From IMG/VR virus record IMGVR_UViG_3300026510_000004, positions 1-42,544 of that record: DNA of 42,544 bases; one strand, written 5' to 3'. Below the pieces are notes generated by a model. It did not search any database. It saw only the letters and a list, made by a program, of their open reading frames with translations, and was not told where the DNA came from. The first letter of the stretch is position 1. Each line of letters opens with the position of its first letter. The position numbers were made by a program, and so were the translations under genes. This document shows positions 12,221 through 15,568 of the stretch, piece by piece. Source of the DNA: a virus.

Positions 12221-12412
12221 ATGAGTAATAACATGGGTGTTGGAACACCAAGCAGGGTTGATGAGCGATACTTCGCTGGTGGTACTGGGAATACAACTAC
12301 CTATGCCATAAGTAGAGTGTGCCCAGCTTGTAAGAAGCAAAAGAAAGCTGGTCAATCACATCCGAAGTGTAGTCGATTGTTACAACAAATGAATATGAAT
12401 GGTGAGATATGA
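12221..12412 (+). CDS. Small zinc-binding protein upstream of the Mom-like gene
   Basis: 63 residues with C-x2-C then H-x2-C in RVCPACKKQKKAG and SHPKCSRLLQQ, a likely zinc site. Its stop overlaps the ATG of the Mom-like gene (ATGA). In phage Mu, the mom gene is preceded by and overlaps com, a 62-codon gene for a zinc-containing protein needed for mom translation. The position and size here are the same, but the sequence is not obviously Com, so this is an analogy. A tiny ORF at 12184-12219 sits between it and the nuclease gene and is probably not a gene. Confidence 0.6.
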   Translation: MSNNMGVGTPSRVDERYFAGGTGNTTTYAISRVCPACKKQKKAGQSHPKCSRLLQQMNMNGEI

Positions 12413-12867
12413 TTGAATACCATGTTGAGCATATAGAAAGAATCGATTGTCAGCTCTTTTTGCTGGGTATTCATTATGCGAAACGGTGGTGCAGTATTAG
12501 CTATGCGTTCGGTCTATTTGCAGATGGTATCCTAACCGGCGTTATAACCTATGGGTCACCGCCGAGTAGTGGGTTGTGCTCCGGCATTGCTGGTAAGCAC
12601 AATGCTACAAACGTCTTAGAGTTGAATCGGCTATGCTTATCTCACAATCGACACAATGAGGCATCAATGCTGATTGGTGGTAGTTTGAAAATACTACCAC
12701 CAGGGAAAATAATTATTAGTTTTGCTAATACAGCTATGGGTCATGTTGGATCTGTGTATCAAGCTACCAATTTTCTATATTGTGGACTTAGCGCAAAGCG
12801 CACTGATTGGTCGCTAAAATCCAAACCGCATCTTCACGGTCAAACTATCGCAGATGAGTTCCGATGA
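12409..12867 (+). CDS. Mom-like DNA modification enzyme, cut by an in-frame TGA
   Basis: 152 residues up to TGA 12865-12867. It contains VLELNRLCLS, then IGGSLKILPP, and IISFANTAMGHVGSVYQATN, which match the Mom family (GNAT-like fold), whose Mu member adds a carbamoylmethyl group to adenine in phage DNA to resist restriction. After the TGA the same frame continues for 34 more codons (12868-12969) and ends in KPRSRKHRYVNFTG, the basic conserved tail expected in this family. The gene therefore looks like one of about 187 codons with a single internal stop: a nonsense mutation, a leaky UGA (followed by C), or a sequence error. Confidence 0.75.
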   Translation: MIEYHVEHIERIDCQLFLLGIHYAKRWCSISYAFGLFADGILTGVITYGSPPSSGLCSGIAGKHNATNVLELNRLCLSHNRHNEASMLIGGSLKILPPGKIIISFANTAMGHVGSVYQATNFLYCGLSAKRTDWSLKSKPHLHGQTIADEFR

Positions 12868-12994: not shown

Positions 12995-13053
12995 ATTTAA
13001 AATATTCCATACACCCTTACCCAAAGAAGATCGCAAATGAAAAAACTAAATAA
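12988..13053 (+). CDS. Very short leader-like ORF before the helicase (21 residues)
   Basis: Reads MSDLKYSIHPYPKKIANEK and ends 17 nt inside the helicase gene. Its ATG is in the 3' arm of the hairpin at 12969-12994. It could couple translation of the helicase, but no ribosome site is clear and it may be chance. Confidence 0.25.
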   Translation: MSDLKYSIHPYPKKIANEKTK

Positions 13054-15568
13054 AACAGACTTGCATGATTATCAAAATCAAACAGTGCAACATATTGTTG
13101 GTCATTCTGACTCTATGTTATGGCTCGGTTTAGGTTTGGGGAAAACTATATCATCACTAACAGCGTTCGATATTTTGCAAAAAATAGGTGCAATCAATGC
13201 TGTTTTAGTTATAGCACCTCTGCGCGTATGTCAGCTGGTGTGGCGTCAAGAGGGGTTGAAGTGGCAACATGTGTCCCACCTCACATTCAGTGTAATGTGT
13301 GGTAGTGAGAAAAAGCGCATTAGGGCATTGTTTAGAAAAGCCGATGTATATTTAATAAACTATGAATCTTTATCGTGGTTATCGATCCAACTTCAGCATT
13401 ATTTTATTGATCAAGGTAAACCTTTGCCCTTCGACATGTTAATTTTTGATGAAGTTTCAAAGGTTAAACGATCTGCATCAAAGCGGTTTGAAGCGTTCTC
13501 CCCGATTGCGCAGTATTTCAATCGCAGAGTTGGGCTAACCGCCAGCCCGTGTTCCAACGGCTTACACGATTTGTGGGCGCAGTTCTTCATGCTCGATGGT
13601 GGTGCTAGATTGGGCACACATTACCCCACATTTCAATCTGCATTTTTCCACCAAGTTGGTCAGGCACAACACAATAAGTGGGAACCGTATAAAGATACCA
13701 GAGATATGATTGTAAATCGCATTAGCGATATGACCATTGAGATGTCAGCGGCAGATCATTTAGACATGCCAGAATTATTAGTTGTTGATGTTGAGATCGA
13801 CTTACCACCAGCTAAAGCTAAATTGTATGCTGAGTTGGAGAAAAACTTCTTCATTGAGCTTGATGAGGGAGGTAGCATCGAAGTGTTCAACAGGGCGGCA
13901 CTGTGTAATAAACTTTTACAATTTTCAAACGGCATTGTTTACAACTACCCTGACCCCGATAATATGGAGAATCAGGTTGAAGAGTTTATCCACGATGAGA
14001 AGTATAAAGCTTTGGATGACATCATCGCTAACTCGGGCGATGAACCAATACTCTTGGCATATAACTTCAGTAGCGAGCGCAGAGAAATCGAGAAACGGTA
14101 TCCCAAAGCTAGATGTCTAACAGGTGTCAGCGAAGAAGAAGCTATTGAAATTATGACCAAGTTCAATAATGGTCAAATAAAACTGCTAATTGGTCATCCA
14201 TTATGTTTAGTCGGTGACACTGAGGTTTTGACCGAAACCAGAGGATGGGTTAAAATAACAAACATCAAAGCTTCCGAGCGTGTTTTCGATGGTGTTGATT
14301 TTGTTGCGCATGATGGGTGCTCATATTCAGGCTACTCGACAGTAATTGATGTTTTCGGGATTGGCATGACACCTGAGCATCGGTTGAAAATAAACGAACA
14401 GTGGGTTAAAGGTAAAGATGTTAGAGATAATTCAAATACTAGACGAGAAGCGTGTTACACCTACAAGGGAAATGATACTTACATTAGTGCAATGTGTCCG
14501 ATGCAGCGGTGTGAGCAAAATGACACTTCAATCCGTAAAAAAGCACAACAAGTTGCATCGGACACATTGTCAACTGTGTCAGCAAGACAAGTTTCACATG
14601 ATGAGTCGCACAAGATTTTACTCGATATGGCGGCACATGCGAGGACGAGCAAACGATCATTTGGACGAAAATTATCAAGGTCGTGGGGTTGGTGTCTGTT
14701 TGGAATGGGAAGTGTTCGAGAACTTTTACAACGATATGTATTCGACATATTCGGATCACCTAACAATAGAGCGAATCGACGTGAATGGAAACTACGAAAA
14801 GTCAAATTGCAAGTGGATCACAATGTTCGATCAACAAGCAAACAAGAGAACAACAAGACGAGTAAGTTACAACGGTGTGCAAATGCACTTGGCCGAATTG
14901 TGCCGGCAGTCGGGGTTTTCCAAAACAATGCTACTCGTGAGATTGAACAAAGGAATGAACGGAGATCAAGCCGTGGCGGATGCTCGAAGATCGAACTACA
15001 GCAAGCGTGGAGCAAAACACGAAACATCGATTGGTCAACTGACGATGAGCGCACTGGCAACACAGCTAAATGTATCAGAAGCAACAGTGTCGAGACATCT
15101 GAAAACAAACAAGATCGAGAAGTTAATCGCAAAGAACATGTCTACGACTTAGTTAACTGTGGTGTTCGCAAACAGTTCCTTGTTCGGAACCCATCTGGTG
15201 ATATATTCATATCGCACAATTCGGCTGGTCATGGTATAAACCTGCAAGAGTCATGCCACATTGTTGTGTGGTTCGGGTTAAACTACAACTTAGAATTATA
15301 TGAGCAGTTTATTGGTCGCATTGATCGCCAAGGTCAAAGCAATCCTGTGCAATGTTTCCGCATAGTTTGTAGAGACACAATGGACTATGCTGTGATGGGG
15401 GCTCTATATAATAAAGATAAGACGCAATCAGCAATGCGTGATGCCATCGGATCGTATAGAGGTAAGGCTATTGATTCTGAAGTGTTGTACGAAGATATGA
15501 GCGTTGGACCACCACCACCAAAAATCGCACCACCACCACCAAAAATCGCACCACCACCACCAAATTGA
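13037..15568 (+). CDS. SNF2-family helicase interrupted by an intein
   Basis: 843 codons. The helicase parts are residues 1-389 and 729-843, about 504 residues after splicing, normal for phage SNF2 proteins. Motif I is G31-LGLGK36-T37; the Walker B box is DEVSK, motif III LTASP, and motif VI QFIGRIDRQGQ. Motif V, SAGHGINLQ, is broken exactly before its Ser by the intein (residues 390-728): the upstream half ends LLIGHPL. It should be an ATP-driven DNA translocase acting with the VRR-NUC nuclease. The C-terminus is a PPPPKIA repeat. The start has only weak AAGA upstream. Confidence 0.9.
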   Translation: MKKLNKTDLHDYQNQTVQHIVGHSDSMLWLGLGLGKTISSLTAFDILQKIGAINAVLVIAPLRVCQLVWRQEGLKWQHVSHLTFSVMCGSEKKRIRALFRKADVYLINYESLSWLSIQLQHYFIDQGKPLPFDMLIFDEVSKVKRSASKRFEAFSPIAQYFNRRVGLTASPCSNGLHDLWAQFFMLDGGARLGTHYPTFQSAFFHQVGQAQHNKWEPYKDTRDMIVNRISDMTIEMSAADHLDMPELLVVDVEIDLPPAKAKLYAELEKNFFIELDEGGSIEVFNRAALCNKLLQFSNGIVYNYPDPDNMENQVEEFIHDEKYKALDDIIANSGDEPILLAYNFSSERREIEKRYPKARCLTGVSEEEAIEIMTKFNNGQIKLLIGHPLCLVGDTEVLTETRGWVKITNIKASERVFDGVDFVAHDGCSYSGYSTVIDVFGIGMTPEHRLKINEQWVKGKDVRDNSNTRREACYTYKGNDTYISAMCPMQRCEQNDTSIRKKAQQVASDTLSTVSARQVSHDESHKILLDMAAHARTSKRSFGRKLSRSWGWCLFGMGSVRELLQRYVFDIFGSPNNRANRREWKLRKVKLQVDHNVRSTSKQENNKTSKLQRCANALGRIVPAVGVFQNNATREIEQRNERRSSRGGCSKIELQQAWSKTRNIDWSTDDERTGNTAKCIRSNSVETSENKQDREVNRKEHVYDLVNCGVRKQFLVRNPSGDIFISHNSAGHGINLQESCHIVVWFGLNYNLELYEQFIGRIDRQGQSNPVQCFRIVCRDTMDYAVMGALYNKDKTQSAMRDAIGSYRGKAIDSEVLYEDMSVGPPPPKIAPPPPKIAPPPPN
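14204..15220 (+). other. Intein (Hint domain) in SNF2 motif V, about 339 residues
   Basis: Residue 390 is the catalytic Cys of block A (CLVGDTEVLT). Block B is GMTPEHRLKI with the expected Thr and His. At the C-end block F reads VYDLVNCGVRKQFLV and block G DIFISHN, with Ser as the +1 extein residue. These are the features of a class 1, self-splicing intein. The region between blocks B and F, where an endonuclease domain would normally lie, is low-quality sequence rich in Arg, Ser and Asn. It contains an HNH gene in another frame (14418-15152). The intein frame has no stop anywhere. Confidence 0.92.
14418..15152 (+). CDS. HNH homing endonuclease nested out of frame in the intein
   Basis: 244 residues, one base ahead (+1) of the intein frame. 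It has a likely zinc knuckle (CVRC then CQLC), the phage HNH core FYSIWRHMRGR, YQGRGVGVCLEW and IERIDVNGNYEKSNCKW, then QQANKR, followed by two DNA-binding helical segments (AELCRQSGFSKTMLLVRLNK and LATQLNVSEATVSRHLK). AAAGG lies five bases before ATG 14418, so internal initiation is plausible; ATG 14472 is an alternative. It ends within intein block F. It should cut intein-less alleles to spread the intein. It could also be made by a frameshift from the intein. Confidence 0.88.
   Translation: MLEIIQILDEKRVTPTREMILTLVQCVRCSGVSKMTLQSVKKHNKLHRTHCQLCQQDKFHMMSRTRFYSIWRHMRGRANDHLDENYQGRGVGVCLEWEVFENFYNDMYSTYSDHLTIERIDVNGNYEKSNCKWITMFDQQANKRTTRRVSYNGVQMHLAELCRQSGFSKTMLLVRLNKGMNGDQAVADARRSNYSKRGAKHETSIGQLTMSALATQLNVSEATVSRHLKTNKIEKLIAKNMSTT
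15509..15562 (+). repeat. In-frame 21-bp tandem repeat (2.6 units)
   Basis: Two identical units and a partial third encode PPPPKIA at the helicase C-terminus, a disordered proline-rich tail. Confidence 0.9.

Follow-up and report, generated by a model that had tools for sequence, protein, structure and literature searches.

Out-of-frame HNH endonuclease gene and stop avoidance in a putative helicase intein of a phage

The window analysed here is the whole of the 42,544-base IMG/VR virus record IMGVR_UViG_3300026510_000004. In it, the open reading frame (ORF) of a phage SNF2-type helicase (13037–15568, plus strand) holds an intein (14204–15220, residues 390–728 of the ORF), and an HNH endonuclease ORF of 244 amino acids (aa) with its own ATG and TAG (14418–15152, plus strand) lies entirely within the helicase ORF, in the +1 frame relative to the intein. 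It is very probable that this HNH gene was captured out of frame in a mobile helicase intein, that it specifies a separate protein, and that the overlap is dual coding under stop avoidance. Both frames are open, intein-frame stops are avoided by the codon choice of the HNH gene, the arrangement is general among relatives, in which the HNH frame is the conserved one, and folds are predicted for both the intein and the HNH protein. In textbook inteins the splicing and nuclease domains are fused in frame; in the elements described here, which occur in polymerases, helicases and a terminase, the nuclease has a gene of its own, superimposed on the intein loop in a different frame. The need of the host gene for an open frame dictates the codon choice of the mobile nuclease, a clean natural example of one-sided dual coding.

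Stop avoidance in the overlap and among relatives

A stop in the intein frame arises wherever an HNH codon ending in T is followed by AA, AG or GA. An earlier note on this DNA, from a hand count, had put such junctions at about 69 with T at none of them, and a recount gave exactly 69 and 0 T. About 25 were said to allow either C or T and always to carry C; 25 do end in C, 21 of them in strictly two-fold C/T codons. Codons of this two-fold class are thus 21 C and 0 T at the stop-prone junctions versus 15 C and 27 T elsewhere in the gene (Fisher's exact test, 2.5e-7), so that the T preference of roughly two to one described for the rest of the gene comes to about 1.8 : 1. Across the overlap the intein frame has 0 stops and the third forward frame 22, near the shuffle mean of 21.4. 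When synonymous codons were shuffled within the gene (n = 200,000), as the note had proposed, the intein frame was open in none of the shuffles, the mean being 13.6 stops and the minimum 4; shuffles with codons from the window's other genes (n = 100,000) gave a mean of 24.6 and a minimum of 10. Elsewhere in the window, 17 ORFs or ORF parts were tested: T occupies 31–50% of their equivalent junctions, and the equivalent frame stays open for at most 76 codons, versus 244 in the HNH gene. For the window, the junction counts and the minimum of 4 stops already refute the idea that chance, or codon or dinucleotide bias, keeps the intein frame open, with HNH the sole real gene in the overlap.

The generality of the layout was surveyed by scanning viral and genome contigs with patterns placed within the Hint (splicing) parts and not within HNH. 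Nine inteins aligned together proved too divergent for scanning the collections, and closer subsets were used instead; 80 of 238 and 80 of 119 loci were kept, and retrieval favoured long matches. The N-terminal splicing part (Hint-N) was found 188 times in 175 loci, 179 times with HNH on another plus-strand frame, which is shifted as in the window in 167 inteins and the other way in 12. The C-terminal splicing part (Hint-C) lies on the same ORF, with HNH in another frame, in 172/188 (160 with the window's shift, 12 with the opposite one); in 7/188 the Hint halves lie on different ORFs with HNH between them, 3/188 are without HNH, and 6/188 are without a detected Hint-C. Two of these last six (L071 and L027) run off the contig and L021 is complete by separate analysis, the others being L079, L085:837 and L172:5585. 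HNH was found in the intein frame in 0/179 and on the minus strand in none of the 175 loci. An earlier frame table comprised 66 entries and listed two loci as being without HNH (L054 and L079).

The host proteins (n = 10 scanned) are polymerases, helicases of two PHROG families and one terminase. DNA polymerases with an intein and a shifted-frame HNH (+1 or +2) occur in APSE-1, Shewanella phage SFCi1, Pseudomonas phage MR14, Salmonella phage vB-SeS-01, Gardnerella phage AB1 and EBPR siphovirus 2; Vibrio phage 97.13 is a further polymerase case, and in Streptococcus phage Javan422 the intein is short and the HNH reduced to a remnant. Two inteins, each with its own shifted-frame HNH, are present in 14 loci, among them L026, L029, L031, L107, L109, L113, L158, L159, L160, L173 and L183. 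The two HNHs of L029, like those of L031, sit in different relative frames.

The 179 HNH-bearing entries form 135 clusters at 90% identity, L166 being skipped for its N letters. In the 129 unbroken clusters (23,834 codons) the intein frame has 0 stops versus 813 expected, and the third frame 1422 versus 1341 expected, with no depletion. The 119 of them that are shifted as in the window have T at 0/5266 dangerous junctions versus 3636/16,672 others. The openness of the intein frame is individually significant (P < 0.05) in 120/129 clusters. The check on homologues suggested in the note, that is, whether stops freely interrupt their intein frame, therefore came out in favour of selection, 129/135 clusters being unbroken. 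The chance reading draws something from the remaining 9/129 clusters, with P of 0.05 or more, and from GC-rich relatives, in which few stops are expected and single loci (e.g. L059 and L027) are not significant. Against it stand the undepleted third frame, the conserved Hint halves and exteins that flank the overlap in one frame, and the free-standing HNH ORFs of the same family (n = 16), whose shifted-frame stops are near expectation for nearly all; we give it virtually no chance of being right.

Five clusters have several stops, and in these the intein halves lie on different ORFs. Their stop counts (24, 17, 5, 13 and 20; total 79 versus 71 expected) are at chance level. The frameshifted L125 falls in a cluster with an unbroken representative. 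In L043:855–1867, L141:136–1154 and L151:852–1861 a polymerase appears to be split at one site into ORFs for the N- and C-terminal intein parts (IntN and IntC) with HNH between them, and IntC starts with Met (MLVPVYDI) behind GGAG, AAAGGA or AGAGGA; on these sequence features the three are probable natural split inteins with HNH. The split reading is less sure for L073. L137 has stops, and its C half is without a start codon in the candidate list; it may have decayed rather than split.

The intein, the nuclease and the constraint on each frame

The plus-strand helicase ORF begins with the N-extein (13037–14203), its first 389 aa, which matches Pfam SNF2-rel_dom (1e-16) and phrog_62 (DNA helicase, 1.7e-121). 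Hint-N (14204–14443, about aa 1–80 of the intein) carries Cys1 and the T-P-E-H block; the middle that overlaps the HNH gene (14444–15121) is open, with zero stops, and predicted to be disordered, with a predicted local distance difference test score (pLDDT) of about 36–65; Hint-C (15122–15220; pLDDT 95–96) ends in His-Asn before Ser+1; and the C-extein (15221–15568), the rest of the helicase, begins SAGHGIN and matches Helicase_C (1e-7). The residues of a class 1 intein are therefore present: Cys1, TPEH (TxxH, block B), the C-terminal HN and Ser at +1. In intein alignments C1, T56 and H59 of Hint-N and D315 and N339 of Hint-C are invariant. A sequence profile search with the intein matched two inteins of solved structure, Mtu RecA (E 5e-5) and NEQ068, and Foldseek with the intein model put inteins and Hint proteins at the top ranks (probability about 1.00, E 0.011 at best). 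In the predicted structure the Hint ends are confident (pLDDT 82–98) and the overlapped middle is disordered. Taken together, the sequence and the model point to a class 1-type intein with a Hint fold inside the helicase, with putative splicing activity. As both Hint halves lie on one continuous ORF, the element is not a split intein or fractured gene, and, with the endonuclease outside the frame of the splicing domain, it is not an in-frame homing-endonuclease intein either.

The uninterrupted site is represented by HPASMGHGID in the helicase of the related phage DSL-LC05. A direct search of viral contigs returned no homologues of the N part of the window helicase or of its intein. Four phage records, all from Caulobacter phages, covered at least 80% of the whole window helicase; they were rejected as homologues of the helicase intein, the intein part having matched the neighbouring DNA polymerase gene. 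The intein of that Caulobacter phage polymerase also carries a +1-frame HNH ORF.

An HNH gene can also sit out of frame in a phage gene that has no splicing domain and keeps its frame open, as described for ShiLan and Pacc40 (PMC11855218), and an insertion of this kind in the window would leave the helicase with an extra retained loop or inactivate it. The Hint ends, the class 1 residues and the matching fold of the insert, which sits in a conserved stretch of the helicase, make this very unlikely.

The HNH ORF matches the PHROG profiles phrog_3377 (HNH endonuclease, 1.7e-44) and PHROG 374 (1.1e-38), and its AlphaFold2 (AF2) model is folded, with a mean pLDDT of 81.8. A CxxC...CxxC pair (aa 26–54) precedes the nuclease core (aa 58–144, 14589–14849), which was delimited by the structural match to PacI and by conserved columns, and a C-terminal helix-turn-helix (aa 207–230, 15036–15107) is suggested by weak Pfam matches (best 1.5e-4, below the curated cut-off). 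When the model was compared with solved structures for a beta-beta-alpha metal nuclease fold, the HNH enzyme PacI came out as the best structural match, with Z 6.7 over 76 residues and 4.3 for the runner-up. With Foldseek alone no solved relative of the model was significant, a profile search of Protein Data Bank (PDB) sequences gave no relative of the protein, and no Pfam HNH model matched the window HNH or the 26 relatives scanned. The window protein contains IERIDVNGNYEKSNCKW, and all 27 aligned sequences share its R119; the family may therefore use another residue than the canonical first His of the HNH motif, which we take to belong at the position of this invariant Arg (RIDxNG), and its catalytic set may be unusual.

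Constraint on the two frames was read from position-specific substitution counts in relatives, in place of a formal overlapping-frame dN/dS, using 19 hand-picked pairs (18 shifted as in the window, 1 the other way) that share members and are not independent. In the 18 pairs pooled, host codon position 3 takes 55% of the substitutions in the N-extein, 41% in Hint-N, 35% in Hint-C and 56% in the C-extein, and the overlap has 46%, 24% and 19% at intein positions 1, 2 and 3, intein position 1 being HNH position 3. The peak within the overlap lies at HNH position 3 in 18/18 of these pairs, and at position 2, as predicted, in the pair with the opposite shift; in two APSE-type pairs, Hint substitutions are too sparse for a peak there. 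The HNH protein is therefore under purifying selection, and the loop is nearly free except for stops. The structure predictions agree with this, in that HNH is predicted to fold and the intein-frame middle to be disordered. The hydropathy of the intein-frame loop is slightly off that of shuffles (-0.72 versus -0.68; Wilcoxon, 4e-7), a small shift that may follow from T avoidance, and no difference in its Cys content from shuffles was detectable; apart from being kept open, the loop gives no clear indication of being under selection. The claim that the open frame argues for selection on two frames, and against chance, is hence upheld as the best reading insofar as both frames are kept open, but the constraint is unequal: the HNH protein is conserved, and the middle of the intein is merely open.

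Two side observations concern the helicase gene and its surroundings. An ORF that matches a Mom-like DNA modification protein (12409–12867; phrog_1384, 4.5e-39) lies just upstream of the helicase, and the helicase C-terminus (15505–15568) ends in a proline-rich repeat, PPPPKIAPPPPKIAPPPPN.

Proposed synthesis of the HNH protein and origin of the arrangement

We propose that a complete small HNH gene with its own start and stop was captured in a shifted frame of the intein loop. Ribosomes starting at the helicase ATG would read through the loop in the intein frame and produce one precursor, from which the intein would excise itself; the translation of the loop would be meaningless and probably disordered. 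Initiation within the intein, at ATG 14418, would yield HNH as a protein of its own; this enzyme probably nicks or cleaves helicase sites that have not been invaded and thereby drives copying. HNH codons ending in T would have been purged before AA, AG and GA because any intein-frame stop would cut the helicase short.

The start at 14418 is preceded, at a distance of 4 nt, by AAAGGT (14408–14413, plus strand), a possible weak Shine-Dalgarno (SD) sequence. SD sites were examined in 46/50 representatives, two remnants having been dropped and the rest being without an ATG candidate, with 565 out-of-frame ATGs in N-exteins as controls. An SD of at least 5 nt precedes the first in-range HNH ATG in 14/46 representatives versus 7/565 control ATGs (Fisher's exact test, 2e-12), and the best candidate ATG in 22/46, some with a perfect AGGAGGT 8 nt before the ATG. 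These sites, and the existence of free-standing HNH homologues, speak against production of HNH by programmed frameshifting, as a fusion to the N part of the intein or helicase and not from its own start. The weak SD of the window and the 24/46 representatives without an SD of at least 5 nt at any candidate ATG would fit such a fusion, which we nevertheless consider unlikely.

An in-frame HNH intein could also have been shifted by two compensating indels. Frameshift mergers do occur in the data: in L025/L049, an Arsenophonus-type prophage, HNH terminates prematurely in its own frame, with an HNH-like tail in the intein frame, and L166 is another. The nuclease of L025/L049 is decaying in an intein that is still open. 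An origin by indels is extremely unlikely, in view of the absence of in-frame HNH among relatives (0/179) and of the start and stop that HNH has of its own; capture as a gene is favoured because the layout is shared across several host genes. The absence of HNH from the intein frame may itself be explained by the stop of the captured gene, which in that frame would truncate the host protein.

In a tree of the HNH proteins, eight of those in the other frame group together and one more sits on a stray long branch, whereas those in the window frame fall in more than one group, with free-standing genes among them. As far as the sequences go, this suggests more than one HNH capture; the number of independent captures is uncertain because several branches, the window's included, are long. 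That out-of-frame HNH inteins are a major, overlooked mobile class in tailed phages and a stepping stone to natural split inteins is a proposition that we put slightly below an even chance. On this route a stop would arise in the loop and a separate start in the C half, whereupon stop avoidance would end and the gene would be fractured; L043, L141 and L151 would represent the end state.

Several points weigh against our preferred reading, capture of a separate HNH gene under stop avoidance. i) Splicing, separate translation in the window phage, DNA cutting and homing are steps that we infer. ii) The window's own HNH start has just the weak SD given above, and the conserved Hint motif KEV spells AAGGAGGT, which contributes part of the SD enrichment. 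iii) The searches returned no close homologue of the window element, and the frame result comes from relatives only. iv) The HNH name is drawn from PHROG labels and a modest structural match to PacI, without a Pfam HNH match. v) Being unbroken implies zero stops, and the informative figures are therefore the 129/135 unbroken clusters and the chance-level stops of the broken ones. vi) Low stop counts at P < 0.05 also occur in 2/32 frame tests on free-standing HNH genes (L001 off2, 0.021; L006 off1, 0.043). vii) Mini-inteins are under-counted because retrieval favoured long matches.

For practice, the arrangement means that phage endonucleases can go unannotated and that inteins can be translated in the wrong frame. 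It also suggests a path, open to experiment, by which natural split inteins, now tools in wide use, could have arisen.

Relation to known systems

Classical mobile inteins such as PI-SceI and PI-MtuI carry a homing endonuclease at the loop between the Hint halves, where the nuclease is part of the intein protein, whereas in the window it is predicted to be a separate protein in another frame. Fractured genes, reportedly described by Dassa et al. in 2009, are said to consist of split inteins with a free-standing endonuclease between them. They resemble L043, L141 and L151 in having a separate endonuclease gene between the splicing halves, and differ from the window, in which the halves form one continuous ORF overlapped by the nuclease.

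In APSE, the DNA polymerase P45 and the nested HNH P46 are annotated as overlapping ORFs (NC_000935), and P45 holds, in our analysis, an intein with HNH in the same relative frame as in the window. This case differs in being a polymerase rather than a helicase, and the rows of the record that we considered carry no intein label. Like the window, the ShiLan domain and the Pacc40 insertion place an out-of-frame HNH gene within a phage gene without closing the frame of the latter; their authors found no intein or intron splicing domain, and the insertion is thought to be retained in the methylase (PMC11855218), unlike the window, where Hint-N and Hint-C surround HNH. A similar methylase case appears in an announcement (PMC12613952).

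The closest description is that of the large terminase of brucellaphages, for which an article mentions in passing a putative intein-encoded HNH gene out of frame (PMC4422536). By its description, it resembles the window in that an essential phage gene has a putative intein with an HNH gene out of frame in it; it differs in concerning a terminase, not a helicase, and in that the passages considered give no codon, frame or comparative analysis. Generality and codon-level evidence for out-of-frame HNH inteins were not found in the open-access literature searched. As far as these sources go, a single out-of-frame HNH in a putative brucellaphage intein was already known, and, within the same literature, the generality of the arrangement and the codon-level evidence for it may be new.
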